NCBI RefSeq assembly: GCF_000685295.1
Contig: NZ_ARYL01000020.1
Span: 1 to 64,000, forward strand
Length of the DNA stretch: 64,000 nucleotides
From: Hyphomonas oceanitis SCH89
Lineage (GTDB): Bacteria; Pseudomonadota; Alphaproteobacteria; Caulobacterales; Hyphomonadaceae
Reading direction: 5' to 3'
This document shows, piece after piece, positions 10,526 through 60,360 of the stretch. Below the pieces are notes generated by a model, which worked only from the letters and a program-made list of their open reading frames with translations, did not search any database and was not told the DNA's origin. Numbering within the stretch: position 1 is the first letter of the stretch; each line of letters opens with the position of its first letter. A program made the translations under genes and the position numbers.

Positions 10526-10765
10526 ATGTTTTTCGGCCGATCCTTACGGCCCGGATTTCTGTCTCATCTTCGCTCCCTTGGCGGGCTACGATGTGCCAGA
10601 AATCCTCCTTAAGCAATTTGGCCGATCTGTCTCACAGTCGCTGACGGGGAACAGCAGAGTATATGACCACGGAGTATACTCTGAATTGAAAACTGAGATG
10701 GCTTCGTTCTTTGGGAAAAGCGACCACGTTCGAAATTCAGCTGTCGCTTGTTGGAAAAAAACCCC

Positions 10766-11425: not shown

Positions 11426-11436
11426 CAGGCAGGGCA

Positions 11437-12459
11437 ATGACCAAGGACGAATCTGCGAGCCGCCTCAAGATAGCGGCGCACTGGTATGCCGAGCTGCGCG
11501 AGCCGGATGCGGATCACCGCACCTGGGACAAGTTTCGTGCGTGGGAAGGCAGTGATCCCGCCAATCGCGCCGCGTTCCAGCAGGTCGAAGCGAGCCTCAG
11601 CCTGCTGGAAGGCAGTTCACTCGCGGCGCCGGGCGCAGGCAACGGGTACGGCTCAAGCGCTACACAATCGGCCTCCCGCAAACCCGCCCGCGTGCGCCTC
11701 TACTGGCTCACGGGGATTGCGGCTGTGCTCGTGCTGGCAGTGGTGTCGGTCGTCACCTTCAGCCCGCCATCGGCGCCTGTGGCCCAGGTTTACGCGACCG
11801 CGATTGGTGACACGCGCGATGTTACCCTAGAGGATGGCTCGCGCGTCACGCTCAACACCGACACTGAACTCGCGGTGACGTATACCGATAGCGAGCGGCG
11901 GATCCAGCTTGCCCACGGGCAGGCGCTGTTTTCGGTCATGAAGGGGACACGGCCCTTCATCGTAGCGGCCGGCGGCAGCGAGACCCGCGCCCTCGGCACA
12001 AGATTCGAAGTCTATCGCGGGCCGGACGATGTGGCGGTCACGCTAGTTGAAGGCTCCGTCAGCGTACTGCCGGAGACGGCAGGGCAGGGGAGCGCAGCGC
12101 CTGACGTCGGCGAAGAGAGGGCCGCAACCGTGCTCGTCCCCGGTGACCGGCTTGTCCTGCGCGGCGGCGCCATTGCCTCGCTGACACAGGTGGACACAAG
12201 CGAGGCGCTGGCCTGGCAGAGCGGCATCCTGCAGTTCAGGGATGTCACGCTTGGCGAAGCGATTGCCGAGCTCAACCGCTATTCTGAAACCAAGATCCGC
12301 GTCGATGATCCCGCGTTGGCCCAAGAGCGCCTCAGCGGCGCCTTCGCAGCAGGTGACCAGGACACGTTTGCCGAGACGCTCAAGCTCTACCTGCCTGTCG
12401 CGGTTCACCGGAAAGACAAGATCATCCTGATTGCATCCGCTGGACGTGTCTCCCCCTAG
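11437..12459 (+). CDS. FecR-family anti-sigma/signal-transduction protein
   Basis: 340 residues. The N-terminal cytoplasmic part (AAHWYAELREPDADHRTWDKF, DPANRAAFQQVE) is the DUF4880-type sigma-binding domain. A single membrane segment lies at about 89-108 (YWLTGIAAVLVLAVVSVVTF). The periplasmic FecR domain follows (TLEDGSRVTLNTDTELAV, GTRFEVYRG, VPGDRLVLRGG) and a secretin/TonB-like C-terminal domain ends it. It transmits the receptor signal to the sigma factor encoded 11 bp upstream. Two broken copies of its C-terminal half occur at 30483-30830 and 32655-32840. Confidence 0.9.
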   Translation: MTKDESASRLKIAAHWYAELREPDADHRTWDKFRAWEGSDPANRAAFQQVEASLSLLEGSSLAAPGAGNGYGSSATQSASRKPARVRLYWLTGIAAVLVLAVVSVVTFSPPSAPVAQVYATAIGDTRDVTLEDGSRVTLNTDTELAVTYTDSERRIQLAHGQALFSVMKGTRPFIVAAGGSETRALGTRFEVYRGPDDVAVTLVEGSVSVLPETAGQGSAAPDVGEERAATVLVPGDRLVLRGGAIASLTQVDTSEALAWQSGILQFRDVTLGEAIAELNRYSETKIRVDDPALAQERLSGAFAAGDQDTFAETLKLYLPVAVHRKDKIILIASAGRVSP

Positions 12460-12646
12460 TTGGGAGATAGACTGAACAACGACCTGGCACGGGGAGGATC
12501 GATGTGACGGGCACCTGCCTGCCGACCGGCGTGCTCGAGAGAGCAGCCACGAGCAGGTGAGGGCGCAAGACATCCTTGACCTGGTGTGCACCCTTTTCGA
12601 GCGATAATTCGTATCTTGGGGTGTCAGCGCGCGAAGGATCTGTGGC
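12460..12646. other. Intergenic stretch between fecR and receptor
   Basis: 187 bp without a gene. It should hold the sigma-dependent promoter of the receptor, but I cannot point to a convincing consensus. GAAGGA lies shortly before the receptor's TTG start. Confidence 0.4.
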
Positions 12647-45264: not shown

Positions 45265-45352
45265 TTTTCGCTGGAAAACAAACTGAACTTAAACTATACG
45301 TTGAAGTTATCGAAAAACTTATAGTCCACGTTTGGCTGGAGGTTCGGAATCA

Positions 45353-45958
45353 GTGGAGAAAATTGAAACCCACTCTTTGTCGATGGCGCTACAGGCTCCC
45401 GAATTGTCGATCGGAACAGCCCCAGGTGGGTCTCCCGGGCTCGCGCAAATGTACCGGTCGCTCCATACCGAACTCCTTCGTTTCGCCCGCTTGCGCATTG
45501 GCGCGGCCGATGCTGAAGATCTTGTCCAGGAAGCCTTCATCTCTGCCAAACGCGCCTATGCAGACAAGCCGACGGAAGAGTTGCGCCCTCTTCTCTACAC
45601 GATCCTGCGCAACCTGACCCGCGACTATCTAAAATCAGGTTATGTCAGACACCGCCGCCAAAGTACCGATATCGGCGATGAGGAAGATCGGCTCGCCTGT
45701 CGCAGAACCCTGAACCCGGAGCAGCAGCTGATGGATAGTCAAATCCTGGTCGTCGCGCAGGCTGCCCTTGGCAAGCTGAAACCGCGCCAGAGAGAGGCGC
45801 TCGAACTCCACCGGCTCGAGGGCCTGACACACAATGCCATTGCCGAGCGCCTCGGCGTATCGCCACGCACTGTAAGGAGTGATATAGCCAATGCTCTGGG
45901 AGCTGTTTCGAAAGCCCTTTTGAAATCCGGCCTCCCGCGCAATGACAGGGCTAAGTGA
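45353..45958 (+). CDS. FecI-like ECF sigma factor of the lasso uptake unit
   Basis: 201 residues from the GTG at 45353, ten bases after GGAGG; an ATG at 45383 is possible. Region 2: YRSLHTELLRFARLRIGAAD, AEDLVQEAFISAKRAYAD; region 4: LTHNAIAERLGVSPRTVRSD. Paralogue of the protein at 10766-11425. With FecR and the STN receptor it should switch on receptor and isopeptidase when the lasso peptide is bound outside (established for FecI systems; inferred here). Confidence 0.88.
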   Translation: MEKIETHSLSMALQAPELSIGTAPGGSPGLAQMYRSLHTELLRFARLRIGAADAEDLVQEAFISAKRAYADKPTEELRPLLYTILRNLTRDYLKSGYVRHRRQSTDIGDEEDRLACRRTLNPEQQLMDSQILVVAQAALGKLKPRQREALELHRLEGLTHNAIAERLGVSPRTVRSDIANALGAVSKALLKSGLPRNDRAK

Positions 45959-45968
45959 ACCCCGCGTG

Positions 45969-46985
45969 ATGAACGACAATGACGAGGAAACCGGCCGGCT
46001 TGAAGCCGCTGCGCTTTGGTATGGCGATCTCCAGGCACCCGATGTGGACCTTGCTACCTGGGATGCTTTTCGCGTCTGGGAGCGCGATCCCCGCAATGCG
46101 GCGGCCTTCCGGCAAATCGAGGCAAGCGTGCCGATCATCGATCGTTCGCTCAGGCTGCGCACGGCCGCGGCCGATGTCACCACTGTGCCCGCCAAGCCGC
46201 GCCGCTCGCGACGGACAGTCGGTGCTGCGCTGGCCACGGCCGCAGCGGTTCTCGCACTGGGCGCAGCTCTCCTGCTGAACCTCCGGGCGCCTGAATTGCC
46301 AAGTCCTTTGACATATGCCAGCGACGTTGGCGAACAGCGCAGCGTCATGCTCATCGACGGATCAGTGGTCACCCTCAATACAGACACCGCGATTGCAATT
46401 CTCTACACTTCGCGCGAACGCCATGTCAGCCTGGAGCGGGGGCAGGCTATATTCGAGGTGGCCAGGACGGGCGTACCGTTCGTGGTGGAGGCGGGCGCCA
46501 GCCGGACGCGCGCTATCGGAACCGCGTTTGAGGTATATCTCAAGCCATCCGGTGTCGCCATCACACTCCTCGAAGGATCGGTTCACGTTACAGCCTCTGA
46601 AGAAGACTCCCTGCCAAACAGTGAGCGCTTGGACCCCGACGAGCGGCGCGGCAGACGCCTCGCGCCCGGCGACCGGCTGAGCATTGCCGCAGATGGCACC
46701 CAGGTCCTTTCGCAAGTTGACATCACGACAGGCCCGACGTGGCGCCAGGGCATCGTTCAGTTCGACAATGTGACACTGGAGGAAGCTGCGGCTGAACTGA
46801 ACCGGTATTCCGATACGAAAATTATCGTGCCCGACGCGCGCTTGGCATCTGAACGCATCAGCGGGACGTTCCAGGCCGATGCGCCTGCGGATTTCGCTGC
46901 AAATCTGGTTCTCATGTTGCCCGTAACCATCGAAGAGATCGACAGTCAGATCCTGCTGGTGCCATCCGGTCCGACACAGCCCTGA
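45969..46985 (+). CDS. FecR-family anti-sigma protein of the lasso uptake unit
   Basis: 338 residues from the ATG at 45969, which aligns with the start of the FecR at 11437; an ATG at 45942 would overlap fecI. N-terminal sigma-binding domain (AAALWYGDLQAPDVDLATWD), one membrane segment at about 80-100 (VGAALATAAAVLALGAALLL), FecR domain (MLIDGSVVTLNTDTAIAILY, GTAFEVYL, LAPGDRLSI) and C-terminal domain (VQFDNVTLEEAAAELNRYSD). Relays receptor occupancy to FecI. Confidence 0.88.
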   Translation: MNDNDEETGRLEAAALWYGDLQAPDVDLATWDAFRVWERDPRNAAAFRQIEASVPIIDRSLRLRTAAADVTTVPAKPRRSRRTVGAALATAAAVLALGAALLLNLRAPELPSPLTYASDVGEQRSVMLIDGSVVTLNTDTAIAILYTSRERHVSLERGQAIFEVARTGVPFVVEAGASRTRAIGTAFEVYLKPSGVAITLLEGSVHVTASEEDSLPNSERLDPDERRGRRLAPGDRLSIAADGTQVLSQVDITTGPTWRQGIVQFDNVTLEEAAAELNRYSDTKIIVPDARLASERISGTFQADAPADFAANLVLMLPVTIEEIDSQILLVPSGPTQP

Positions 46986-47422
46986 TTACCCCGGCGGACG
47001 CTGAAGAATCTGACGGTAGGGCGTCCCTCAGTGTCAGCACGGATCAAGCTCGCAATACGCAAGCGGCATGTCATAGGTCGCACATGACCCTTGCCTGCAA
47101 GGTGTCTGGTTGCAGTTGATGAAAACCGTCGCGCCAGAGGCGGCGTCCGTCAGCGCGGCGGAATACGGACCCGGTCTTTGAGTGGATGCCGGATGCTCCG
47201 ATCTCCCAGGAAACCAAGCGAGTGCAATGCGATCGCTCACATTGGGGCGTTTATCCGCAATCGGTAGTTCTGGAGAGGCGGGCTGAAAAGCGCCGTTCCG
47301 GGCAGAGGACATCCGTTCACAATCCAAATATTTTCCTGCCGCTTCTTCGGGCTCGCCTCGTTGAGGGTGTTGACTGCCGGGATGGAATGCCTGGCCGGGG
47401 TCAAGCAAATCCGGAGGGGACC
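46986..47422. other. Intergenic region upstream of the lasso receptor
   Basis: 437 bp. It should hold the FecI-dependent promoter of the receptor-isopeptidase operon. A minus-strand open frame here ends in a Cys-rich tail but has no ribosome site and overlaps the promoter region; I do not call it. No clear -35/-10 identified. Confidence 0.4.
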
Positions 47423-50194
47423 ATGATCACAGCATCATCATTCAAGCGATATTTTGTCAGCATTGCAGCGGTTGCGCTGGCTGCAGGTTCCCCCGAGGGA
47501 CGTGCTTGGGCCGACCCATTCAATGCGAGCGAGTCAGTCCACCTCATGATCGATGAAGACACACTCGGAGCGTCGCTTCATGCCTTCGGCAAACAGTCAG
47601 GCGCCCAGATCCTCTTCTCCGAAACCTCTGTCTCGGGTCGTGCCGGTGTGCGCCTGGACGGCACTTATACGGCTGCCGCGGCGCTTGAGGCGCTTCTGAA
47701 CGGGACGGATCTCGAAGCCGTGCGAGGGCAGGGCAACACCTTTATTGTTCGGCATCGGAGCAATCAAAAAAAAGAGACATTGAAAGACCCGGATTTGCCT
47801 CGACGCGTCTCCGACACGCCCGCGGTCGCTTCTGATGCTGAGGCAGATGCCTCAAGTCCTGAGCCTTTGATGGTGGACAAAATTATTGTGACGGGCACCA
47901 GCTTGCGCGGCATCACGCCTGAAAGTTCGCCGCTCCAGATTTACTCCCGCGATGATATACTCGGTTCAGGCGTGACAACGACTGAGCAGTTCATCAGGAC
48001 GCTGCCGCAGAATTTTGGCGGTGGGTCGACTGAGCTCGCACCATCTGGACTGCCAGGCGACAGTAATTCACAGTTCAACAATATTTTCGGATCTGGCGCC
48101 AATCTGAGGGGGCTCGGGTCCGGCGGCACATTGACATTGCTTAATGGTAATCGGCTCGCGCCAACTTCAGAAATTGGCGACTTTGTGGATCTCTCTCTGA
48201 TCCCAATCTCGGCACTCGAGCGCGTGGACGTTATGACCGATGGTGCGTCGTCCATTTATGGCGGTGACGCGGTTGCGGGCGTCATGAACTTTATCTTGCG
48301 GGATGATTTCGAGGGCGCCGAAACGGCCGTGCGTTATGGGGCTGTGACGCAGGGCAATCTCGAGGAATACCGGCTCAGCCAGACACTGGGTACGGCCTGG
48401 CAAAGCGGTAACGTGATCGCAACGTACGAGTATTTTGATCGTGACAATCTCTCGCTGGCTGACCGTCCGGATATCCCGGTCCCGACTCAGACGGACGGAG
48501 CGCCGATTTCGAATGTCGGGCTCTTCGATCTTTTGCCGCAACAGACACGCCAAAGCGGACTTCTTTCGCTCAGGCAGTCGGTCAATGCCGATCTGGATGT
48601 TTCAGTGTCGGGACTTTATTCGAAGCGCGAGGCCGACAGTCTCTCTGTCTATGCGAGCAATACAAGCTCGGTTCTGGGTTTCGAAGCCTCGTCAGAATTG
48701 CAGTCGTTCAGTGCCAGCGCAACATATACAATCTCGCCTCGCTGGGCAGTGACGCTCGATTCAACCTATAGCAATATCCACAATATCGAGACGGCGCAGA
48801 CCCTTTTACCAGAACCTTTCGAACCTAGCGTCAAGGTCACGCATTCTGATCTCTATTCGGCTGATCTCAGGCTGAATGGTGATTTGTGGCGCATTGGTGG
48901 AGGGACCGTAAAGAGCGCATTGGGCGTCCATGTACGCCGTGAAACATTCGTCAATGAGCAGCGAGGCGAAGGCGCCGAGCGCGATGGCGAGCGTGATGTA
49001 AGCGCTGTCTATGGTGAATTGCTTGTCCCTTTTTTTGGATCTGGGAACGCTGTCCCGGGTATTCAGCGGCTTGAACTGAACGTGTCGGGTCGACTTGACG
49101 ATTACAGCGATTTTGGCTCCACAGTGAACCCGAAAATCGGGGCTTTATGGTCGCCGATTAGCGGGTTGATTGCGCGTGGCAGTTATAGTGAGTCCTTTGC
49201 GCCGCCTCCGCTTGGACGTACAGGTGACCTCAACAGAGTCGCGGCGGTGGTTCCATATTCGTATATTCTGGGACTGCTAGGCGGTATCCCTGCGCCGGAT
49301 CCTTCACTGGAAGGCGTGGATTATCTTCAGACGTCCGGAACGGTTGCTGATCTCGAGCCAGAGACGTCTCGGACGTATACGGCGGGTATTGATTTTACCC
49401 GCCACACGGGTCGTCACGACTGGTCAGTTCGAACCAATTACTATGACATCGCCTTCGAGGGCCGTCTCGGGTCAACGCCGATACCCCAGAACCTGCCCGC
49501 CGTACTGGCCCCCAGTATTGCCTTCAATGATCCGGATGCCTTTCCGAATGGCACCATCATTTTCTTTCCGAGCGCAGCCGAACTTGATGCCCTTGAGGCT
49601 TCGCTGAGCCAGCCAGTGATCTTCTTGGGCGGGGGCAATAGCCTGGACAATGTCGGTATCATCAATAACAGCGCAGTCGTCCGAAACCTTGCTTCCACCC
49701 GGACAAGTGGAGTCGATATTCAAGTCGATTATGCAACAGAAACCGACTGGGGAAATATATCGGCGGGGATCAATGCCAATCATATACTCGACTTCACCCA
49801 GCAGGCGTCTCCGACAACGCCCGAGGTAGTAGTTCTCGATACATATCTGAACCCAGTCGATCTTCAGCTCCGAGCCCATGTTAGCGTATCGGTAGGGGGC
49901 TTAGCCGGCAACGTGTTCGTCAACTATGCTGATAGCTACAAGACTGATGAGACCGACACTGCTGCGCCGATCGCTGCGTGGACAACGATCGATACGTCCT
50001 TGAGCTATGCGTTAGGTCAGCGCCAGAACCCTTGGCTCGACGGGACCACGTTCAACCTCTCCGTGACGAACCTGCTCGATCAATCACCACCTCATACGCC
50101 TTCGGTTGGCACCAGTCGCATTGCTGGGTTCGACCCGGCGAATGCATCCCCACTTGGTCGCTTCGTCGCCATTGAAATTCGGAAGGCGTTTTAG
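47423..50194 (+). CDS. STN-containing TonB-dependent receptor, probable lasso peptide importer
   Basis: 923 residues from the ATG at 47423 behind GGAGGGGACC. Signal peptide to about residue 30 (GRAWA). An STN signalling domain follows at about 40-95 (LGASLHAFGKQSGAQILFSE, YTAAAALEALLNGTDLEAV), the part that contacts FecR. Plug: DKIIVTGTSLRGITPESSPL, NLRGLGSGGTLTLLNGNRLA, VDVMTDGASSIYGGDAVAGV. Barrel ends FVAIEIRKAF. It is three bases upstream of the isopeptidase start codon spacer and forms one operon with it. This is the receptor-isopeptidase pair known from astexin clusters. Confidence 0.92.
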   Translation: MITASSFKRYFVSIAAVALAAGSPEGRAWADPFNASESVHLMIDEDTLGASLHAFGKQSGAQILFSETSVSGRAGVRLDGTYTAAAALEALLNGTDLEAVRGQGNTFIVRHRSNQKKETLKDPDLPRRVSDTPAVASDAEADASSPEPLMVDKIIVTGTSLRGITPESSPLQIYSRDDILGSGVTTTEQFIRTLPQNFGGGSTELAPSGLPGDSNSQFNNIFGSGANLRGLGSGGTLTLLNGNRLAPTSEIGDFVDLSLIPISALERVDVMTDGASSIYGGDAVAGVMNFILRDDFEGAETAVRYGAVTQGNLEEYRLSQTLGTAWQSGNVIATYEYFDRDNLSLADRPDIPVPTQTDGAPISNVGLFDLLPQQTRQSGLLSLRQSVNADLDVSVSGLYSKREADSLSVYASNTSSVLGFEASSELQSFSASATYTISPRWAVTLDSTYSNIHNIETAQTLLPEPFEPSVKVTHSDLYSADLRLNGDLWRIGGGTVKSALGVHVRRETFVNEQRGEGAERDGERDVSAVYGELLVPFFGSGNAVPGIQRLELNVSGRLDDYSDFGSTVNPKIGALWSPISGLIARGSYSESFAPPPLGRTGDLNRVAAVVPYSYILGLLGGIPAPDPSLEGVDYLQTSGTVADLEPETSRTYTAGIDFTRHTGRHDWSVRTNYYDIAFEGRLGSTPIPQNLPAVLAPSIAFNDPDAFPNGTIIFFPSAAELDALEASLSQPVIFLGGGNSLDNVGIINNSAVVRNLASTRTSGVDIQVDYATETDWGNISAGINANHILDFTQQASPTTPEVVVLDTYLNPVDLQLRAHVSVSVGGLAGNVFVNYADSYKTDETDTAAPIAAWTTIDTSLSYALGQRQNPWLDGTTFNLSVTNLLDQSPPHTPSVGTSRIAGFDPANASPLGRFVAIEIRKAF

Positions 50195-50197
50195 ACA

Positions 50198-52795
50198 GTG
50201 GCAACGACAGGTAATGTGTCTACCGCGCACCGCTACGCGTTTCCCATCCTTAGAAATGCGATACTCGCTGCTGTCCTGCTTTTGACGCAGCTTTTTGCTG
50301 CGGCTATGGCTGACTCCAGGTCTCTTTCCCTGGATGACATGCTGAAAGTTGAAGGCTTAGGGACGGCCACAATTGACCCGACAGGCCGTTGGCTCATTTA
50401 TGAGCAGCTGCGGCCCTATGACGAAATTCCCGATTATAGTTTTCGAACCTATGCATTCGGCAAATCCGGTCACCAGTTATGGCGCTATGACCTGGCGTCT
50501 GGCGCTCCCCCGGTTTTGTTGCCGGGGCTCGATCCCGTTCCGCATGCGTGGCTTGACGGGTTTTCCCCATCAGGTCGCTTTCTTAGCCTTATGCAGTATC
50601 GGTTCGGGGATCTCACTATCAGCGCATATGACATGGTACGCGAGCGCAGCGTGTCCTTTGCCCACACACCTGCATTCAGCAGAACGGGCGATTTCAACCC
50701 CGTCTGGATTTCAGAAACTGACCTTGTCTTTTCTGCGCTACCTCAAGGTGACCAACCCGCCACAACCAGCGTGCGTGCTTTAACCGGCAAGCGACTAAGC
50801 GAGGCTTGGCAGGACGCATGGACAGGTACCACATCGACGGCGGATGAAGTGCGATCAAGGCCTCCCGGGGCGGCTGACAGCCATGCGGCAGGCCAACTTG
50901 TGCGTGCTAATGCGCTTTCTGGCAGAACCGAGATCCTTGCAGAGGGGCTTTATGCAGATATTCGCGTTTCGCCAGACCATTCTCAGTTGGCAGCATTAGC
51001 TGTTTCACCTCCGGATCAGGTTGACCCCGAGGTGCTTGTCGAGAACGACCCACGTCATTTTACGCTTACGCTGTTTGACCTGGAAAAAAATGCGTCCCGC
51101 GTGTTGGCGGGGAGCTTAGAATTTATGCCCTATACGATCAGCTGGGATCCAGCCGGACGGCGCTTGGCAGCCTTTGCCTGGGAGCGCGGTGGATATCCTC
51201 GGGATGGGAGATTTGTCGTGATCGACACATCGACCGGGCAAGTCACCCGTTATGACCATGATGGTCTCGACCTCGTGTCCGAGCGCGAAAGAGGGGGCAT
51301 TCAGAGACCAGAACGCGTGTCTTTTCTTGACGATAGGCTGGCGATTTTCGCGCGTAAGATACCAAAAGGCGAGGATCCGACGCCGCGGTTTTCCTATCAG
51401 GACTTGCGGCCGGAAGCTCCTCCAAGAGCAGACTGGTATGCGGTGTCGCCACAAGGCCGCCATGTCAATCTGACTGCGAAAGTCGGAGCCACATCGCCAA
51501 TTCCTGTCCATGCTGGCCCGAACGAGCTCACTGTGTGGGGCAGTGAGGGGATATATCGGCTTGATCGATACGGGATCCGGGACCGACTAATGCCGGGCAG
51601 GGCAGACAAGTTCCGCTATCTGCCGCATGGGACGTTTTCCACCCGCGCAAGCTTGGTTCGCCCGGATTTTGTCGACGAAGCAATGTTTACGTTTCAGCTG
51701 GGAGGAAAGGCGCAGATCGCCCTTGTGGACCTACGCGCCAAACAACTTGGTCAGAGTACGATTATTGACGCACCAGACGCCGACGCGCTTCCGATCGCAG
51801 CCTCCATCCCTGCGGAGAAGGTGGTGTTTCGATCCCAAACAGGTTCTGTCACACGTGTCTTTGCGACCGGCACAAAATCCAAGGGGGCGACCACGCAAAT
51901 CGCTAATCTCAACACTCACCTTCAAGATATTGATTTCGGAAAGTGGAGCAGTGTTCAGTATGTTGCAACGGATCCGGAGGGCCTTTTGCCAGACAGGACG
52001 TTGGAGACATGTCTCCTTTTGCCTCCGGATGCCGAACCCGGCGATCGGTTCCCACTTATTGTGGATATCTATCCGGGTGTCGCAGGCCGCTGCTCAGCTA
52101 TGGTCCCTGCGTTCGACTATCCCGATCCCCACTCGCCCTACCTATGGGCAGGAAAAGGATACGCTTATGCCAGAGTCGCAACGCCAAGCGACTTCATCCG
52201 CACGGTCGAGGGGCCGATTGCGGGCATGCCAACGCTCATAGACGCTGGCGTCGATGCACTTATTGATACGGGTCAGGTGGATCCGTATCGGATCGCATTG
52301 CACGGCTTTAGTCAGGGCGGAATCTCGGCACTTTATGTCGCGGCCCACACATCTCGGTATCGTGCAGTGATCGCGAAAAATAGCTGGGCAGACCTTTTCA
52401 GTCACTACTTTGGCGCCGTCGGCATTTATGGACTTCTATATGACGAATTCGGCGCATATACGGGCTACGACTCCGTGCGAGGCAGCGACTTTGGAATTGG
52501 CCACACGCCATTTGTTGATCCCGGCATATACTACCGTAATAGCCCTGTGTTCTTAGCAAACCAGATCGACATGCCTGTTCTCCTGATGCATTCGGACCTG
52601 GACAGTTTCGATATGGCGCAATTTGACGAGATGTTTGGTGCGCTCAAGCGGGAAGGAAAGGATGTGCGCTATATACGCTACTGGGGCGAGGGCCATGGTC
52701 CATCGTCACCTGCGAATATTCGGGACATGTGGAAACGTATGCTGACATTTCTCAATGAGTATGGAGTTGCACCGGGTATTAGGAGCGACGATTGA
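50198..52795 (+). CDS. S9-family lasso peptide isopeptidase (AtxE2-like)
   Basis: 865 residues from a GTG at 50198, eleven bases after GGAAGG. Signal peptide ending AAAMADS. The middle is a beta-propeller; the C-terminal alpha/beta-hydrolase domain carries the nucleophile Ser in HGFSQGGIS (about residue 705), Asp in HSDLDSFDM (800 or 802) and His in WGEGHGPSSP (833). Lasso isopeptidases of this type hydrolyse the Gly-Asp/Glu macrolactam bond. Pairing with the receptor and convergence with the lasso biosynthesis genes make this function very likely. The 3' end overlaps the cyclase gene by 17 bp. Confidence 0.9.
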   Translation: MATTGNVSTAHRYAFPILRNAILAAVLLLTQLFAAAMADSRSLSLDDMLKVEGLGTATIDPTGRWLIYEQLRPYDEIPDYSFRTYAFGKSGHQLWRYDLASGAPPVLLPGLDPVPHAWLDGFSPSGRFLSLMQYRFGDLTISAYDMVRERSVSFAHTPAFSRTGDFNPVWISETDLVFSALPQGDQPATTSVRALTGKRLSEAWQDAWTGTTSTADEVRSRPPGAADSHAAGQLVRANALSGRTEILAEGLYADIRVSPDHSQLAALAVSPPDQVDPEVLVENDPRHFTLTLFDLEKNASRVLAGSLEFMPYTISWDPAGRRLAAFAWERGGYPRDGRFVVIDTSTGQVTRYDHDGLDLVSERERGGIQRPERVSFLDDRLAIFARKIPKGEDPTPRFSYQDLRPEAPPRADWYAVSPQGRHVNLTAKVGATSPIPVHAGPNELTVWGSEGIYRLDRYGIRDRLMPGRADKFRYLPHGTFSTRASLVRPDFVDEAMFTFQLGGKAQIALVDLRAKQLGQSTIIDAPDADALPIAASIPAEKVVFRSQTGSVTRVFATGTKSKGATTQIANLNTHLQDIDFGKWSSVQYVATDPEGLLPDRTLETCLLLPPDAEPGDRFPLIVDIYPGVAGRCSAMVPAFDYPDPHSPYLWAGKGYAYARVATPSDFIRTVEGPIAGMPTLIDAGVDALIDTGQVDPYRIALHGFSQGGISALYVAAHTSRYRAVIAKNSWADLFSHYFGAVGIYGLLYDEFGAYTGYDSVRGSDFGIGHTPFVDPGIYYRNSPVFLANQIDMPVLLMHSDLDSFDMAQFDEMFGALKREGKDVRYIRYWGEGHGPSSPANIRDMWKRMLTFLNEYGVAPGIRSDD

Positions 52796-54617
52796 TTCCA
52801 TGCCGACCCACACGAATAGCTTTCCAGGTCTGAAGCCAGGATTCGATGGAATAGTAAGCCAGCAACAGGCTGCCAGAGCTCGCCATACGATAGTCATCGC
52901 CGGAAAAAAACGATGCGACATCTCGCGGCTCGATCAACCCCCTCCCCGCCAGCTCGCCGTACGTGAGCGCCTCGACGATTTCGCGGCGGTAGGCCGTTAC
53001 TCGATCTGTAAAGTATCGGGATGCATGTCCTTTGTTCATCCGATGACGGATCTCGTCAGGGATGGAGCCTTTGAAGGCGCGCCTGGCAAGGCCGCGGCTC
53101 GTCGCGTCAGACGTGAGCAGGTAGCAGGGCAGGCGAAGGCATAAATCGATAAGGGGCTGGGCTATGAGGGGATGAGTGGTCTGGACTGCACCGGGTTTGA
53201 AGTATGGCTCCCGCATTTGAAACATATGTAAGAGCGTGCTGACCTGATCAAATTTTGCTGGTGGCAATCCGCCCGACACACGTATCCAGTCGGGGAGCAC
53301 ACTCTGACGATCCAGATTGGCCTGAACGTGGCGATTGATGTGTGTCCAGCGTCCGGCGATGGCTGCTTCCATCGCGCTGGTTCCACGGCATCCGACTAGC
53401 GGTGGCAAGGTCTTCCGGAGAACCTGCCAAATTGACTTGCCTGAGAGTCTGGCGGCGTCAACCAGGCCCTGGGCCGTCTCCAGACATATGCCGTGATTGC
53501 GGACATGATCTGCAAAGCTGAGCGGACTTCGGGACGCCAGGAACAGATGGTCTCCACCCTGTCCCGTCATCAGGGTCGTTCCAGGTGTTCGAAACGATTC
53601 CGGAAGGAGCCCGGCCGGATCTGGCGAAAGGAACTGGCGATGAGGACGCACGCTAGCCGGATGCCGACCGAGTGAATCGAGACCGGACTGAGGTTCGGCT
53701 AGGATTTCTATCAGCTCGCATCCGCTTGCCTCTGCCGCCAAGCGAGCATAATGCGCCTCAGAAGCATCATCAGAATCCATTATGTAATGTACCGCGCGAA
53801 CCTGTCCTCTGGGGCGGGCGGCGCAAAGGCAATGGAGAACAATTGTCGAATCTAAGCCTCCGGAGAGACTGACAACAATATCGGATCGATCCCTGGCGGA
53901 GGCTTCGACAACGTATTGGACCGTGGCCCTCAGTTCCTCGGCTGCTGTGTCTCGATGCGGTTCGTAAACATCCCGAGCAATCGCGCGAGGATCCCATAAA
54001 CGGGTTCGAAATGAACCGCTTTTACTGATCGTCAGCTGCTCGCCGCCGAGGAGCTCTGATACCTCTTTCAATCCCGTAGAGCCGTTTATGATCTTATCAT
54101 ATGAGAGTAGCGTACGAACGTGTTCTTCATTGATGGAAAAGTTGGTCAGGTCCAGAAACGTGCAATTCTCCAGGTGGGAAAATACCAGCGTCACACCGTT
54201 TTGGTTGGCGAAGTAGCAGGGAATGGACGCGGTTGGATCGAGAATCACAGTGGAAGCGTCGGCCGAGGCCAGAAAAGCAACATAGTTGCCCCAATACCTA
54301 TCAATCAGCGCTTGGCCCGTCGTGCGATAAAGTATCCCTTGCTCGTCTGGCGGCAAACGCGAGAGCGCGTCACTGCTTCTTCCTTTTTGATACAGTCGAC
54401 CGAACACGGCGCCGTTGCAGTTTGGATCAATTCCCTGAAGCGGAAGAAGATTGTTTCGGCTGCCAGCGCCACTCAAGTCATAGATCGCAAATCCGGGATG
54501 GCGAACAGACGGAGCTTCAGGGCGAAAATTGGAGCTTATATCATTGTGAATTCCGTCGGCCGCTGAGCAGGCCGGCACTTCATGCTGGTCCCAAATCATT
54601 GCGAAGAATGATAGCAT
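52779..54617 (-). CDS. Lasso peptide macrolactam synthetase (C protein, asparagine-synthetase-like)
   Basis: 612 residues; ATG at 54617 seven bases after AGGAGG. An N-terminal glutaminase-like fold without the catalytic Cys2 is followed by the ATP pyrophosphatase motif SLSGGLDSTIV at about 250-260 and GTTLMTGQGGDHLFL. It adenylates the ring acidic side chain and joins it to the N-terminal amine of the core. It is last in the A-B-C order, 11 bp after the B gene. Length fits known lasso C proteins. Confidence 0.92.
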   Translation of the reverse strand: MLSFFAMIWDQHEVPACSAADGIHNDISSNFRPEAPSVRHPGFAIYDLSGAGSRNNLLPLQGIDPNCNGAVFGRLYQKGRSSDALSRLPPDEQGILYRTTGQALIDRYWGNYVAFLASADASTVILDPTASIPCYFANQNGVTLVFSHLENCTFLDLTNFSINEEHVRTLLSYDKIINGSTGLKEVSELLGGEQLTISKSGSFRTRLWDPRAIARDVYEPHRDTAAEELRATVQYVVEASARDRSDIVVSLSGGLDSTIVLHCLCAARPRGQVRAVHYIMDSDDASEAHYARLAAEASGCELIEILAEPQSGLDSLGRHPASVRPHRQFLSPDPAGLLPESFRTPGTTLMTGQGGDHLFLASRSPLSFADHVRNHGICLETAQGLVDAARLSGKSIWQVLRKTLPPLVGCRGTSAMEAAIAGRWTHINRHVQANLDRQSVLPDWIRVSGGLPPAKFDQVSTLLHMFQMREPYFKPGAVQTTHPLIAQPLIDLCLRLPCYLLTSDATSRGLARRAFKGSIPDEIRHRMNKGHASRYFTDRVTAYRREIVEALTYGELAGRGLIEPRDVASFFSGDDYRMASSGSLLLAYYSIESWLQTWKAIRVGRHGINRRS

Positions 54618-54628
54618 GACACAGCCTC

Positions 54629-55324
54629 CTAAACGGTCATTATTCGGCGGTACTCTTTGGTGTTGTCGGCGTGGTCATTCAAAATCAGACCGTCCTGTTC
54701 TACCCAACAGTGCGCGCCAAAGGGGGATAGGCGAACGCCGAATACCCAATCTGTGGGAATATTGAACAAGGCGAGAAACTTTATCAGGACGAGGCTGCGA
54801 AAGCGGCACGCGTCGTCTGTTGTTAGCAGAAATGGTGACAAGGCATGGAAGTCAGCTACCAGCGTATGAACCTGAGCGCTCGGTGGGTGCGGTCGGCGTA
54901 ACGCGTTCTTCTTCCATTTCCGAACTGCCCGCACAACGCGCGCGAACGAGCCTGTTCGCTCAAGCGTCCAGCAGGAAATGAGAGCATAAGCTAGGGGAAC
55001 CAGGTGGCTAAACGCAGTGTGAAAAGGCTCTTCAGAGTAGAGATCCAGAATACTATCCCGCGCTTCTGTGATCGGCAAAAGAGTCGTCGTCGATTGGTCG
55101 TGCGCAGCTGGCGCTATCACAGCTCGATCTACAAGACGGTTGGCAAAGCGACGTGCACCGTCGCTTAATTGAGCGGGAGCGGATGCTGCGCATATCTCAT
55201 GCAACCAGTCAGTCTGTTCGGATGTTAGCCTGAAGTAACGGTCCGCATTGACATCAAGAAGGATGATCGCGGCCTCAAACTGACAAGCATAAACATCCGG
55301 AGAAAGAGCAAAAAAATGTGTCAT
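54629..55324 (-). CDS. Lasso peptide B protein (leader recognition plus cysteine protease)
   Basis: 231 residues from the ATG at 55324. The N-terminal part (YACQFEAAIILLDVNADRYF, LTSEQTDWLHEI) is a PqqD-like leader-binding element; the C-terminal part is a transglutaminase-like protease with Cys in TTDDACRFRS (about 172), His in PFGAHCWVEQDG (about 206) and Asp in LNDHADN (about 216). It removes the leader. Both functions are fused, as in proteobacterial lasso systems. Confidence 0.9.
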   Translation of the reverse strand: MTHFFALSPDVYACQFEAAIILLDVNADRYFRLTSEQTDWLHEICAASAPAQLSDGARRFANRLVDRAVIAPAAHDQSTTTLLPITEARDSILDLYSEEPFHTAFSHLVPLAYALISCWTLERTGSFARVVRAVRKWKKNALRRPHPPSAQVHTLVADFHALSPFLLTTDDACRFRSLVLIKFLALFNIPTDWVFGVRLSPFGAHCWVEQDGLILNDHADNTKEYRRIMTV

Positions 55325-55478
55325 ACTTTCACGGCGATGGCCGGCCCGTACTTGATCCTGGACTGCTATATGCAGTCGAAAATTGCGACAATTAGTGGTT
55401 GGCCGGAGCATCTGGGTTGCCCGAAAGAAGCTCCGGCCGATTGGATGCCGTTCCCAGTCAAAGTGGGATTGCGGCTAT

Positions 55479-55607
55479 CTAGTCGCGTGAGCTCTGGCCG
55501 AAGAACTCAATGAGCCCGTTGGGTTGCCCACGGGTCTCTTCGGAGACTGAGCCAAGTTCGATCAAATCAAGGAATTCTTCCTGATGGTCATCTGAATTCG
55601 TATACAT
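55479..55607 (-). CDS. Lasso peptide precursor
   Basis: 42 residues from the ATG at 55607, with AGGAG seven bases upstream. A leader of 26 residues contains the FLDLIELGSVSEET pattern of alphaproteobacterial lasso leaders, with the essential Thr at -2 (ends ETR). The predicted core is GQPNGLIEFFGQSSRD, 16 residues: Gly1 and Glu8 would form an 8-membered-residue macrolactam ring and FFGQSSRD the loop and tail. Phe9, Phe10 or Arg15 could be steric locks (inference). It is followed by B and C. Only one precursor was found. Confidence 0.88.
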   Translation of the reverse strand: MYTNSDDHQEEFLDLIELGSVSEETRGQPNGLIEFFGQSSRD

Positions 55608-55656
55608 ACCGATTCTCCTATTCGCATAATCGTCGCCGAGATTGACGACAGGTAGA

Positions 55657-55684
55657 ATAATGATCCTATCTAAAGTAGAGTCAA
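55657..55684 (-). promoter_or_regulatory. Promoter of the lasso A-B-C operon
   Basis: On the minus strand TTGACT (55684-55679) and CATTAT (55662-55657) are separated by 16 bases and would start a transcript about 40 bases before the precursor ATG. The surroundings are AT-rich, unlike the flanking genes. Confidence 0.55.
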
Positions 55685-55805
55685 TAATCGACAAAATTAA
55701 AATCCAGAAAGAAATACAAGCAGTTTTTGCTCGGGCATGGTTGGCTTCACGAAGGTTTTGTGCAGTCGCATCTGAAGTGCGGGCAGGCTCCGCCCCGAGG
55801 CGATA

Positions 55806-57161
55806 CTAAGCCGTGTCTTCGTTGATCTGGGGAAGAAGAACCGGCAACGGCGATTGCTGCAACAGGCGTCGCGCCTTTTCCACATCACCGATTCGACGCG
55901 ATGTCTCGGCACGGATCAACGCATAATAGGCACGAGCGTAGGGATCTGTTGAAAAAAGAGCCGGAGAACTCAGCACTGAGGCAAACGCTCTGTCGGGCGT
56001 TCGCCAACCTGGCCCGTAAGTTTCAGCAAGGTAGCGATCCGGATTGTCAGGCACGGTCCATGTCCTGCCGCCATAGACGGCTTTCTTCAACCCGAATGCG
56101 CTGAAACGCCATGCGATATCACCCGGCAAGGATCCGAGGCCGCAATGCAGCTTATCTTCGCGCTGCTCGTAGATGAAAACATCGACGCCGGTCCCGTCAA
56201 CATTAAGAGCGAAGTACTGGTCATTTGGCCGGGCGCGGCGGGCTAGCATGAGCCCGGGATCCTCGCGGAGGATACGGTATATGTCTGGCGCTGTGCCGGG
56301 GCTGGAAAGCACGCCAATATCCACATCCCGGTCATAAACAAGCGGACCGCCATTGCGGTGAAAGCCGAGCAGCGTTCCTGCGGCCAGAAACGGCGTGACG
56401 CCACTTGCCTGAAATATGGCGAAGACTTTCAACAGGGCGGCTATTGCCGCATCTGGCTTGAATTGAGGTCTTGGCGAAATCTTCGCCGCACCGGGCGCGC
56501 TAAAGACAAGCGAGTTTTGTCTATGTTCCAGGGCAGCCCGATAGTCCCCTGTCTCATAGCAGGCCCGCGCGAGGCAGGCATAAGCGGTCGATTGATCCTC
56601 AAACCGTGCAAAATTCTGCCTGACAAAGCCGACCGCATTCTCGTCACGTCCTGCATCGAGAAGCGCATTCATGCATCTGACAAATAGGATGGGCTGGACG
56701 GCCGGGTCTTCGCAGAGGTGACAAAGTAGTCTGGCCGCTCGGGCGATGGCGTCTAGGCGCTCTTCCTCGCGAGGCGTGATATCTGCGATCGATTGCAGCG
56801 ATCGCCATGCATGAGGCTGGGCCGTGACCGCATAGCGAAAAGCGTTCAGGGCATTCTCACGGTCTTCAAGCAGATGCAGGGCAAGCCCCTTTCCGTGCAA
56901 AGCCTGTGCATCGCGGGGATTGGTCGCAAGGATATTCGCGAACACGGTTAGCGCGTCAGAGGCGTGTCCCGCACGCAGGTGAGCGGCAGCCAGAGACTGG
57001 AGAATGGGGAGATGGTCCGGCCATAGAGAACTTGCTTCGTCCAGCACGCTAATCGCTTCGTCCGGAAGGCCCGCCGCGAGGCAACGCAGCCCGGAGCGAA
57101 GCGCGTCCTGCCAGCGGCGCTCACCCCGCGCCGGTTGGTCTGCCTGAGCATCTGTCGCCAC
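55806..57161 (-). CDS. TPR plus LicD-like nucleotidyl/phosphotransferase protein
   Basis: About 451 residues from a GTG at 57161 with GGAGG five bases upstream; the frame is open four codons further to a TTG without a ribosome site. N-terminal half: TPR-like repeats (AAGLPDEAISVLDEASSLWP, LAAAHLRAGHASDALTVFAN, ALHLLEDRENALNAFRYAVT). C-terminal half: the LicD-type signature FLAAGTLLGFHRNGGPLVYD with RDVDIGV, whose acidic pair would bind metal. LicD-like enzymes transfer phosphocholine or related groups. It lies about 200 bp upstream of the lasso precursor in the same direction and could modify the peptide, but its ordinary targets are glycans. Confidence 0.8.
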   Translation of the reverse strand: MATDAQADQPARGERRWQDALRSGLRCLAAGLPDEAISVLDEASSLWPDHLPILQSLAAAHLRAGHASDALTVFANILATNPRDAQALHGKGLALHLLEDRENALNAFRYAVTAQPHAWRSLQSIADITPREEERLDAIARAARLLCHLCEDPAVQPILFVRCMNALLDAGRDENAVGFVRQNFARFEDQSTAYACLARACYETGDYRAALEHRQNSLVFSAPGAAKISPRPQFKPDAAIAALLKVFAIFQASGVTPFLAAGTLLGFHRNGGPLVYDRDVDIGVLSSPGTAPDIYRILREDPGLMLARRARPNDQYFALNVDGTGVDVFIYEQREDKLHCGLGSLPGDIAWRFSAFGLKKAVYGGRTWTVPDNPDRYLAETYGPGWRTPDRAFASVLSSPALFSTDPYARAYYALIRAETSRRIGDVEKARRLLQQSPLPVLLPQINEDTA

Positions 57162-57321
57162 CTTGGCCTCCAAATGAGAAATCGAGCAGTTGAAAATCGT
57201 AATGTTAAACCTTAAGTGGGAATATAATACAACGTGAAGATTGGTATTTGGCTAAAGTGGCCTTGCCGCCGGCCTTGTGGACCGGGCGGCGGGGAGCGTT
57301 CGAAGACTTTTTGAAACCGGG

Positions 57322-58059
57322 ATGACACCCATGCGAAACTATGACGGTAGCGCAGTTCTCGAAGCCATCAGGCTCATTCTCGCAACACATAGCGATAGCG
57401 CCGCACTGATCGCTTTGGCCGGCTTCATCGAAGCCTACGGATTTGAAAAGATTTTCCTGGGCCATCTCGTCAATCCCTACAGCGTGCCGCTGAAGGATAT
57501 TCTCTATCTTTCCAACTGGCCGGAGGAACTCAAGGCTGCCCGAAAGAAGCAGGCGGCTATCCTGCATGACCCGGTGGCGATCTGCGCCATACGGTCCAAA
57601 CGGCCATTCACCTGGGCTGAAGCGCGTGCTCATGCCACGCGCTCTGGCCGCAGGATTGTCGACCTCGTCCATGGGTTTGGTCTGACACATGGCATGATGT
57701 TTCCCATGCATGCGCTCGACAGCGTGTCGGGTGGCGTATCACTTGGAGGCCCCCTCAAAACCGACCTGTCACCGATCCAGATCAGAGAATTGGAGATCGT
57801 TTGCCAGGCCGCCTATTATCATCTCGAGAGTATGCATGGTCCATTTCCCTATCAGAAGGTGGCCGAGCTTACCGGACGTGAAGCTGAATGCGTGACATTT
57901 GCCGCCTCGGGCAAATCCAACTGGGAGATCGCTCACATACTTGGCATTCAAGAGGACACGGTCAAGAAGACCCTGCGCCGGGCGAGCAACAAGCTGGACG
58001 CCGTCAATCGGACCCATCTGGTCGCGAGCGCGATTGCGCGTCATCAGATATTTCCCTGA
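57322..58059 (+). CDS. luxR: LuxR-family autoinducer-responsive regulator
   Basis: About 245 residues from the ATG at 57322; a GTG at 57277 and an ATG at 57331 are alternatives. An N-terminal autoinducer-binding domain (ARKKQAAILHDPVAICAIRS, RPFTWAE, GRRIVDLVHGFGLTHGMMFP) is followed by the LuxR helix-turn-helix at about 185-240: LTGREAECVTFAASGKSNWE, IAHILGIQEDTVKKTLRRAS. It sits 27 bp before luxI. It probably senses the acyl-homoserine lactone made by its neighbour. Confidence 0.88.
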   Translation: MTPMRNYDGSAVLEAIRLILATHSDSAALIALAGFIEAYGFEKIFLGHLVNPYSVPLKDILYLSNWPEELKAARKKQAAILHDPVAICAIRSKRPFTWAEARAHATRSGRRIVDLVHGFGLTHGMMFPMHALDSVSGGVSLGGPLKTDLSPIQIRELEIVCQAAYYHLESMHGPFPYQKVAELTGREAECVTFAASGKSNWEIAHILGIQEDTVKKTLRRASNKLDAVNRTHLVASAIARHQIFP

Positions 58060-58062
58060 CAA

Positions 58063-58078
58063 GTCCCCGAAAGGGGAC
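58063..58078 (+). promoter_or_regulatory. Hairpin/palindrome over the luxI ribosome site
   Basis: GTCCCC-GAAA-GGGGAC is a perfect 6 bp stem capped by a GNRA tetraloop. The 3' arm (GGGGA) is the only purine-rich sequence at a suitable distance (nine bases) before the luxI ATG, so folding would hide it. As DNA the same palindrome could instead be a LuxR-type operator. Confidence 0.55.
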
Positions 58079-58086
58079 ATTACCAG

Positions 58087-58785
58087 ATGACGTCCCTGGA
58101 ACATGATCCTTCTGCCACACAAGGAGAAGAAGCCGTGTTCAAAATCATCACGCCTGACAACCGGGCCCAGAACAGTGCCCTCATCGATGCCATGCATGAG
58201 ATGCGTTACCGTATCGTCGTCGGCGAGTGGGGATGGGATATTCCCGACATCGCGAAGGGCTATGACAAGGATCAGTTCGACACCGATGACACCGTCTATG
58301 TCATCGTACGAAGCAGGGCCGGCGATGTGGTCGGCTCGTCGCGGCTCAATCCAACCATCCACCCGCATATGATGAGCGAACTCTTTGCCGATTATTGCGA
58401 TCTCCAGCCCTATCCAGTGGGCAGGGACGTCTGGGAATGTTCGCGCTTTGTCACAGACCGTGCTTTGATGGAGGATGCCGTTGACGATTTCAGAGTTCGG
58501 TGTCGTCTCGGCCTCGGCCTGACGGCCTGGAGCCTCGATAACAAGGTTTCGCGGTTAAGCTGGCTCACACATCAGAAGTTTTTCAATTTGGTGCAGAAGG
58601 TTTGGGATACCGAGCCGCTTGGCTTGCCGAAGCGCGAAGGGGACGGTTGGGCCTGGATCCCGGCTGTTTCCCGCATGGATGAGGCGACATTTGATCGCCA
58701 ACTGGATCGCTACAGAAACGCCGACGCGATCGTCGCCCAGTATATGGGCGCTAGGCCAGCCCTAAGCCAGGCGCAAGTCGTATGA
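58087..58785 (+). CDS. luxI: LuxI-family acyl-homoserine-lactone synthase
   Basis: 232 residues. The invariant positions of LuxI are present: Arg in EMRYRIVVGEWGWD (about 40-53), the acidic pair in KDQFDTDDTVYVI, and GSSRLNPT, WECSRFV. The N-terminus is about 15 residues longer than in short LuxI proteins. Produces a diffusible acyl-homoserine lactone from SAM and an acyl donor; chain length not predictable. Overlaps the next gene by ATGA. Confidence 0.93.
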   Translation: MTSLEHDPSATQGEEAVFKIITPDNRAQNSALIDAMHEMRYRIVVGEWGWDIPDIAKGYDKDQFDTDDTVYVIVRSRAGDVVGSSRLNPTIHPHMMSELFADYCDLQPYPVGRDVWECSRFVTDRALMEDAVDDFRVRCRLGLGLTAWSLDNKVSRLSWLTHQKFFNLVQKVWDTEPLGLPKREGDGWAWIPAVSRMDEATFDRQLDRYRNADAIVAQYMGARPALSQAQVV

Positions 58786-59810
58786 CGGGCCGCAATGCGG
58801 TTTGTCTGACTGTCGCAGATCGTCATGCCTTTGCCGAGGATGGCGTTCTTTGCCTGCGCAATGCGCTGTCAGCAAACGAGGTTGATCTTTTGCGCGCGGC
58901 TGTTGACCGCCAAATAGCCAGCCTCGGATCCTCTTCCACGGGTTACGATTTCGAGGCAATCGCGCATCAGGTTTGGGGTGGGGACAGTATGGTCGAGACC
59001 GGTTCTGCAGACCGGTTCGATATGGAGCGGCTCAAGGACATGATCCGCGCAGATCCTTTCTCCCGTCCCCTGCAGGAGACGGTCGGCACAGGACAGACCG
59101 GCCTCTTCTTCTACGACGTTGCGGCCTGGCGTCACGACAGAGGTGTCAGGCAGGTCGCCTTTGATTCGGCACTACCACAGATCGTAAGCCAACTGCTTGA
59201 GGCTCGCTATCTCAATTTCTGGGAGGATACGACCTTCGTTAAGGCTCCGCAAACGCGGCAAAGAACAGCGTTTCATCAGGACCTTTCCTACTTTCAGATC
59301 GAGGGGGACCAGTGCGTCGTCGTCTGGATGCCGCTCGATCCAGCTGACCTTGCCAATGGTGTTACGCAATATGTCCGAGGGTCCCACCGATGGGATGAAA
59401 TCTTTGCGCCCAATGTCTTTGTTTCACAGACTCCGATCGCCACTTCTGCTGACAGCCGGTGTCCCGACATCGAAGCAGCTCAGGAACGCTACGACGTGAT
59501 CAGCTTTGATGTCATGCCGGGCGATGTGATTATCCACCATGTGCGCACCGTGCATGGTGCGGGGGGCAATCCGTCTGATCGGTGGCGGCGCGCAATGTCC
59601 TTTCGGTATTGCGGTGATAAAGTTCGGTATTTCGACCGGCCGGGTGCGATCAGCCAGGTTGGCGTCGCTCATGACCTGAAGAATGGTGACCGGCTCTTTT
59701 CGGCTGACTACCCTGTCGTCTGGCCAAGGCCTTGGCCGGGATTCCGCATGGCGGATGCTTTTGACGCGCAGATCTGTCTACAGAAGGGGTCCCAGGCGTC
59801 GACGGCCTGA
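58782..59810 (+). CDS. Phytanoyl-CoA dioxygenase (PhyH)-like protein
   Basis: 342 residues. Fe(II)/2-oxoglutarate oxygenase with the metal triad HxD in TAFHQDLSYFQ (about 163-165) and the distal His in DVIIHHVRTVHGAGGNPSDR (about 247-253), plus a likely 2-oxoglutarate-binding Arg in RWRRAMSFRY. It is translationally coupled to luxI. PhyH genes beside luxI/luxR are known in sphingomonads, so it may modify the signal's acyl chain by hydroxylation (inference). Confidence 0.88.
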   Translation: MTGRNAVCLTVADRHAFAEDGVLCLRNALSANEVDLLRAAVDRQIASLGSSSTGYDFEAIAHQVWGGDSMVETGSADRFDMERLKDMIRADPFSRPLQETVGTGQTGLFFYDVAAWRHDRGVRQVAFDSALPQIVSQLLEARYLNFWEDTTFVKAPQTRQRTAFHQDLSYFQIEGDQCVVVWMPLDPADLANGVTQYVRGSHRWDEIFAPNVFVSQTPIATSADSRCPDIEAAQERYDVISFDVMPGDVIIHHVRTVHGAGGNPSDRWRRAMSFRYCGDKVRYFDRPGAISQVGVAHDLKNGDRLFSADYPVVWPRPWPGFRMADAFDAQICLQKGSQASTA

Positions 59811-59967: not shown

Positions 59968-60360
59968 TTGAAGAAACCGCGACCAGGCGCCAATGCAGCC
60001 CGTACAGCGACAGAAGTCGATCGCCAGGTCGGGCACAATGTCCGCAGGATCAGAAACGCCCTTGGCCTGACCCTCATGGAATTGAGCGAACAGCTGGGAA
60101 TCAGTCATCAGCAGCTCCAGAAATATGAGACCGGCAGCAACCGGCTCAGCGCCGGAACCCTTATGGCGATGTCGGAGCGCCTTGGTGTACCCATCAGTGA
60201 GCTGTTCGACGCTGGCGGCACGACAAAAAAAACATCGGAATCGGAGAGCGACAGACTGAAGGTCGTCTGTCGCCGGGTCATTGAACGGACGCGCTCCCGG
60301 AAAACGCTGGATCTCATGGCGCGTGTACTGAAAGCCATAGACGAGAATGGCAGTCTGTAG
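59968..60360 (+). CDS. Cro/C1-type HTH regulator with TTG start
   Basis: 130 residues from a TTG at 59968, nine bases after AGGGAGG; no better start exists. Helix-turn-helix: RRIRNALGLTLMELSEQLGI, SHQQLQKYETGSNRLSAGTL. It is a paralogue of the regulator at 42573-42935 and of a type common in Rhizobiales and Caulobacterales. It follows the quorum-sensing operon and may be controlled with it. Confidence 0.83.
   Translation: MKKPRPGANAARTATEVDRQVGHNVRRIRNALGLTLMELSEQLGISHQQLQKYETGSNRLSAGTLMAMSERLGVPISELFDAGGTTKKTSESESDRLKVVCRRVIERTRSRKTLDLMARVLKAIDENGSL

Follow-up and report, generated by a model that had tools for sequence, protein, structure and literature searches.

A subterisin-family lasso peptide locus in Hyphomonas oceanitis adjoined by a TPR-LicD gene and a LuxR-LuxI pair, with a conserved Ser/Thr-Arg/Lys pair in the peptide tail

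The stretch analyzed here, referred to as the window, comprises 64,000 nucleotides of Hyphomonas oceanitis SCH89 (contig NZ_ARYL01000020.1, positions 1 to 64,000) and carries a lasso peptide locus. The precursor gene A (55479-55607, minus strand) translates as MYTNSDDHQEEFLDLIELGSVSEETR followed by GQPNGLIEFFGQSSRD. Its leader ends in LGSVSEETR, with Thr at position -2, and the 16-residue core GQPNGLIEFFGQSSRD has a predicted Gly1-Glu8 ring and a conserved Ser14-Arg15 in the tail; its computed neutral mass minus water is 1732.817 Da. Downstream on the same strand lie the leader peptidase B (54629..55411; NF033537, lasso_biosyn_B2, 66.5 bits against a cut-off of 33) and the asparagine-synthetase-like cyclase C (52779..54617; Pfam Asn_synthase). 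In B, an N-terminal stretch precedes the B2 domain, and C202 and H234 are conserved in 26 of 26 sequences; in C, the SGGLDS motif is conserved in at least 26 of the 27 compared. The locus thus combines Thr-2, Gly1, an acidic residue within core positions 7-9 (here Glu8), a B2 peptidase, and an asparagine-synthetase-like cyclase, and its capacity for lasso peptide biosynthesis is strongly supported. Across 31 loci with 25 distinct cores, this leader type is found again together with Gly1 and Glu8, and the window core is found unchanged in a contig of a public sister metagenome-assembled genome (MAG; L061); the window precursor is therefore not a chance reading frame. The nearest public record found was JAHJYW010000015.1, an alphaproteobacterial MAG whose C protein is 95% identical.

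On the opposite strand, an uptake and sensing arm comprises an extracytoplasmic function (ECF) sigma factor of FecI type (45332..45958; Pfam Sigma70_r2, r4_2), a FecR anti-sigma regulator (45942..46985; Pfam FecR, DUF4880, FecR_C), a TonB-dependent receptor with an STN signaling domain (47186..50194; Pfam STN, Plug, TonB_dep_Rec_b-barrel), the true start of which is probably later than the first ATG, and a divergent S9 peptidase (50198..52795; Pfam Peptidase_S9). In the S9 enzyme, S705, D800/D802, and H833 are conserved in all 22 sequences compared, and its putative isopeptidase-like role is suggested by its position, its family, and these Ser/Asp/His residues. An earlier note on this DNA, made from the sequence alone, had described a complete astexin-type lasso locus with this arm; gene content supports the lasso locus and the arm, all seven genes from the precursor to the sigma factor lie where it had placed them, and translation of 55479-55607 (minus) confirms Thr-2, Gly1, and Glu8. 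In gene order the locus agrees with the label astexin-type; the precursor, however, is a member of the Pfam Subterisin family (PF24178; 31.2 bits, cut-off 27) and falls below the cut-off of the benenodin model NF033522 (26.5 against 33 bits). Likewise, A, B, C, and the import and sensing genes are all present, but the account was not complete, as it missed a TPR-LicD gene and a LuxR-LuxI-PhyH block that recur at related loci. Elsewhere in the window, at 10748-14737, lies another ECF sigma factor with its own FecR and TonB receptor, and by eye it resembles the sigma factor of the lasso locus.

The gene adjoining the precursor (55806..57173, minus) encodes a protein of 455 residues that combines TPR repeats with a LicD-type transferase domain (Pfam TPR, LicD) and is proposed here as a lasso tailoring enzyme; the interval of the earlier note (45353-57161) stops inside it. 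LicD is a phosphocholine transferase, and the fukutin-related protein FKRP is a ribitol-phosphate transferase. The Pfam LicD model (PF04991, cut-off 22.6) scores 23.0 bits on the whole protein and 25.7 on the domain alone, 14 of 15 TPR-LicD members match it at E 0.05, and a profile of the domain retrieves fukutin-related protein from the PDB (E 5e-6). All 24 TPR-LicD proteins compared share an invariant motif, GT.LG..R and then DRD.D.G. Among 105 genomes of the window's family, TPR-LicD was found at 27 places in 20 genomes (E 1e-25), of which 25 adjoin a B2 match; the other two lie at contig edges, one beside a precursor (G349:C186, L106) and one beside LuxRI (G349:C488, L105). Outside this family the search covered only lasso-bearing genomes, and in 78 of them TPR-LicD occurred at seven places in four genomes (E 1e-5), six beside B2. 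On plasmids, five records gave distant matches, and the one examined (Octadecabacter) lies among flagellar genes.

This gene is paired with a conserved motif in the peptide tail. All 25 distinct cores of the clade have Gly1, Glu8, and a [Ser/Thr]-[Arg/Lys] pair 6-8 residues past Glu8, mostly as Asn-Ser-Arg, whereas such a pair follows the ring in none of 24 distinct comparison cores (Fisher p 6e-14, computed on 24 vs 24 cores with kinship ignored). The clade comprises 31 loci, at 29 of which a whole LicD gene is in view. A check set, read after the motif had been recognized, consisted of three distinct cores of family f5 (L112-L115) and the core of L106, which has Thr-Arg seven residues past Glu8. 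Regex-matched open reading frames (ORFs) without a leader-like LG..S/T..T were left out of the count (e.g., L063, L064, L065, L071, L072, L082, L097, L101, and L116), and some of these contain Ser-Arg or Thr-Arg. Also left out were ORFs at L089-L091, which end with Thr-Arg or Ser-Arg but are positioned opposite FecR and appear spurious, uncertain ORFs without the pair at L118 and L124, and L116 and L117, where LicD is more distant (28% identity); no precursor was found at L062 and L119. At L117, a lasso-like precursor with a 33-residue, Cys-containing core (8206-8355) sits beside the distant LicD copy. The tail that the earlier note thought unusual therefore carries a conserved clade feature, the Ser-Arg pair. 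The core, which it did not recognize, is indeed absent from the searchable literature, but it is not unique, being identical in the sister MAG and present as the near-variant GQPNGLIELFGQNSRN in a third genome; it is an ordinary new member. The tail Ser/Thr is probably the residue modified by the LicD enzyme.

Beyond TPR-LicD, a block missed by the earlier note spans 57277-59810 on the plus strand. It encodes a LuxR-type regulator (57277..58059, likely start 57334; Pfam Autoind_bind, GerE), a LuxI-type acyl-homoserine-lactone (AHL) synthase (58087..58785; Pfam Autoind_synth, PF00765, 69.7 bits against a cut-off of 24), and a PhyH-family dioxygenase overlapping the end of luxI (58782..59810; Pfam PhyH, 103 bits against 22), which may act on the AHL or the peptide. 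Arg24, Phe28, and Trp34 of LuxI are named as absolutely conserved in PMC3704786. In this LuxI clade, with positions matched by eye, R40 and W50 are invariant, and all 16 aligned proteins have Val44 where Phe28 would stand, so the AHL signal may be unusual. In each of the 17 other same-family lasso loci with LuxRI that were read, PhyH adjoins luxI; L061 is left out of this count as a repeat of L066. A small helix-turn-helix (HTH) regulator (59968-60360) recurs near related loci, and at six LicD loci without LuxRI (L086-L088, L106, L113, and L115) a small HTH regulator occupies the LuxRI position.

The linkage of quorum and lasso genes extends well beyond the window. A survey of the order (398 genomes, matches at E 1e-8) found lasso B2 149 times, spread over 102 genomes, and LuxI 133 times, in 101 genomes. 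LuxI lies within 10 kb of 46 of the 149 B2 loci, always 2.6-5.3 kb away, against about 0.7 expected if placement in 3.6 Mb genomes were uniform; because the loci share ancestry, independent events number fewer than 46. By family, the B2 loci with a nearby LuxI number 17/32 (f1), 0/59 (f2), 25/39 (f3), 0/3 (f4), and 4/16 (f5). Judged by eye, B and LuxI share a strand in the 25 f3 pairs and are opposite in the 17 f1 and 4 f5 pairs, and these differing orientations, together with further gene orders on sphingomonad plasmids, argue for coupling rather than one frozen arrangement. Within the 105 genomes of the window's family, 18 of 20 LuxI copies at 60% identity or more have B2 nearby, one at a contig edge adjoins LicD (L105), and the last stands with LuxR and PhyH at L104. 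The H. oceanitis genome itself has a further lasso locus, on a 9.9 kb contig (C59), with the same neighbors as in the window: PhyH (cut), LuxI, LuxR, TPR-LicD, A, B, C, an isopeptidase-like enzyme, and a receptor (cut); its core is GGFNQGAEFAVGPNSRLIPIG, and its paralogous precursor scores 23.4 bits on Subterisin PF24178, below the cut-off of 27. Of 25 plasmid records that carry lasso C, at least 6 have LuxI within 10 kb among the LuxI matches listed (60 of 103), and on the Sphingobium indicum UT26S plasmid LuxI lies about 12 kb from the lasso C locus. A megablast of window positions 53000-58000 against plasmids gave no match.

The region upstream of A was compared across 22 aligned loci. A promoter-like block, TTGACTC...TTCTAC (55650..55684, minus), is conserved in them, with GACTC invariant in 22/22. 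Next to it, a possible hairpin in the 5' untranslated region (55632..55649, minus) is part of the predicted fold in 20 of the 22 (counted by eye). Its arms differ in sequence between loci yet still pair, and fold energies are mildly below those of shuffled sequences (z -0.1 to -3.5); for the window and for L066, its nearest relative, a different fold is predicted at this site. The hairpin is unlikely to be a LuxR operator, since loci that lack LuxRI have it too (L068, L071, L082, and L086-L088) and its arms change in sequence.

Taken together, these observations make it reasonably probable that the locus produces a quorum-linked lasso peptide of the subterisin/astexin kind, which is probably LicD-modified on the tail Ser/Thr, exported, re-imported, sensed, and opened. 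In this scheme, B would cut off the leader, and C would link Gly1 to Glu8, giving an 8-residue ring through which an 8-residue tail is threaded. An AHL made by LuxI and read by LuxR would probably time production. TPR-LicD would probably place a phosphate-linked group on the conserved tail Ser/Thr before Arg/Lys, which is Ser14 in the window. The secreted peptide would be taken back up by the STN receptor, with signaling through FecR to the ECF sigma factor, and the S9 enzyme would open the ring in the periplasm. A wider proposal is more tentative: these loci may represent a lasso lineage with a new tailoring step, in which TPR-LicD adds a phosphodiester-linked group to the tail Ser/Thr before Arg/Lys, by analogy with phosphocholine and ribitol-phosphate transferases. 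In many members, AHL quorum control of production may combine with FecIR-sensed uptake, a shared density signal gating a strain-specific peptide signal.

Several points weigh against this interpretation. No consistent lux box emerged from inverted-repeat and lux-box-like scans of 20 licD-luxR or luxR-adjacent stretches, a search that did not take in the luxI upstream region. Eleven loci have a close LicD and no LuxRI in the DNA read (L068, L071, L082, L086-L088, L106, and L112-L115), and a close LuxRI-PhyH copy at L104 has no lasso gene in the 20 kb read. The Pfam LicD match is short, covering 33 of 227 profile positions in the window protein, and near the cut-off, and a single-sequence AlphaFold model of TPR-LicD was too poor to use (mean predicted local distance difference test score 45). 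The comparison cores for the tail motif are a convenience sample, and none of the counts is phylogenetically independent. Within the clade, LicD is cut by the contig end in L078, and at L081, the source of one of the 25 cores, the contig ends before any LicD. The two loci with the distant LicD depart from the pattern: in L116 a Thr-Lys follows Glu8 by only four residues, and L117 has no [Ser/Thr]-[Arg/Lys] pair. Finally, the S9 enzyme scores 48.3 bits on the NCBIfam Atxe2-family model NF033523, against a cut-off of 400, which is why it is termed isopeptidase-like.

Other explanations can be set against the same evidence. The conserved tail pair may instead be a steric plug or a contact for the receptor or isopeptidase, with LicD acting elsewhere, for example on a surface glycan or in the AHL pathway. 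Arginine is bulky enough to lock a tail, and LicD and FKRP relatives act on glycans, so a structural role as plug is a live rival, to which we give appreciable though minority weight. However, the 24 comparison cores also need plugs and lack the pair, and close TPR-LicD homologues in the 105 family genomes (E 1e-25) occur only at lasso loci or contig edges. A somewhat unlikely alternative is that the lasso and lux genes are neighbors without regulatory coupling, belonging to one accessory region that moves as a piece. The examined sphingomonad lasso-lux blocks do sit on plasmids, 87 of the 133 LuxI loci lack a B2 within 10 kb, and the main text of PMC4288048 describes sphingomonad luxRI-phyH genes without referring to lasso genes. 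The tight 2.6-5.3 kb spacing in 46 loci with more than one gene order speaks against it, as does the presence of a separate LuxRI at each of this genome's two lasso loci.

The locus could also be an ordinary subterisin/benenodin-type cluster with incidental neighbors. Its core genes and their order agree with those of known clusters, for example in Caulobacter rhizosphaerae; nevertheless, the LicD and LuxRI linkage recurs, and we regard this explanation as quite unlikely. Less likely still, the locus could be silent or decayed, with no peptide made. Eroded relatives exist, including L093, without C in the DNA read, and L072 (with L111), where the DNA read contains neither a receptor nor an isopeptidase-like gene. 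At L093 (G269:C5), LuxRI, LicD, precursor, and B are present, and about 9 kb of sequence read past B contained no C. In the window, however, the reading frames are open, and twelve locus and neighboring proteins are 93-97% identical over their aligned length between the window and the sister MAG (L061).

To our knowledge, the role of alphaproteobacterial lasso peptides with isopeptidases is an open question. With related clusters repeatedly lying beside AHL genes and an unstudied enzyme that may modify the peptide, the regulation of these peptides and their chemistry both become testable. That the LuxRI linkage recurs in apparently two orders suggests quorum timing for many of them, and it makes hosts and inducing signals directly testable. 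A search of titles and the opening of abstracts, with subscription journals mostly outside its coverage, found no paper tying lasso peptides to LuxI, LuxR, AHL, or LicD; one paper matched LicD together with lasso peptides, incidentally to judge by the same text.

Comparison with known systems places the locus among familiar clusters with distinct additions. Its likeness to subterisin of Sphingomonas subterranea (PF24178) lies in the precursor, which passes the family cut-off; its 16-residue core, the Ser-Arg near the end, and the adjoining TPR-LicD and LuxRI set the window apart, a comparison that does not extend to the subterisin neighborhood. In astexin/benenodin-type clusters, such as that on a Caulobacter rhizosphaerae plasmid, A-B-C lies opposite the isopeptidase, TonB receptor, FecR, and sigma factor, as in the window, but in C. 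rhizosphaerae the stretch read includes a GntR gene, and neither LicD nor LuxRI is annotated there. Sphingobium sp. RAC03 is likewise a counter-example to the quorum linkage, with no annotated LuxI in the stretch read. Closer in their quorum genes, the loci of Sphingomonas paeninsulae YZ-8 and the Novosphingobium sp. PP1Y plasmid Lpl have luxR-luxI-phyH near a benenodin-type lasso cluster; unlike the window, they have GntR, no annotated LicD, and another gene order. In YZ-8 the row reads luxR-luxI-phyH-gntR-A-B2-C, and in PP1Y luxR-luxI-phyH-gntR lies beyond the sigma factor, separated from it by a single HEPN gene. In Novosphingobium rosa (L065), LuxR, LuxI, PhyH, and a GntR-like gene precede A (PhyH and GntR by eye from ORFs). 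The luxRI-phyH genes of sphingomonads are described in PMC3704786, which reports the PP1Y luxI, and in PMC4288048, and the word lasso is absent from the main texts of both. Tailoring of a C-terminal Ser by a cluster-encoded enzyme, resembling that proposed here, is described in the accessible part of a review (PMC9266682) for paeninodin (kinase PadeK) and pseudomycoidin (kinase PsmK, nucleotidyltransferase PsmN). Unlike in the PadeK system, no kinase family appears among the Pfam and NCBIfam matches listed for the cluster proteins scanned. The Paenibacillus and Bacillus systems use a kinase and an annotated nucleotidyltransferase, whereas the window has TPR-LicD, set apart from PsmN by annotation, and an internal tail Ser/Thr before Arg/Lys. 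If true, LicD-type tailoring with a clear predicted site would be a lasso chemistry not found in that part of the review. What is new in this locus is thus the quorum linkage and the pairing of LicD with the tail motif, not the core.

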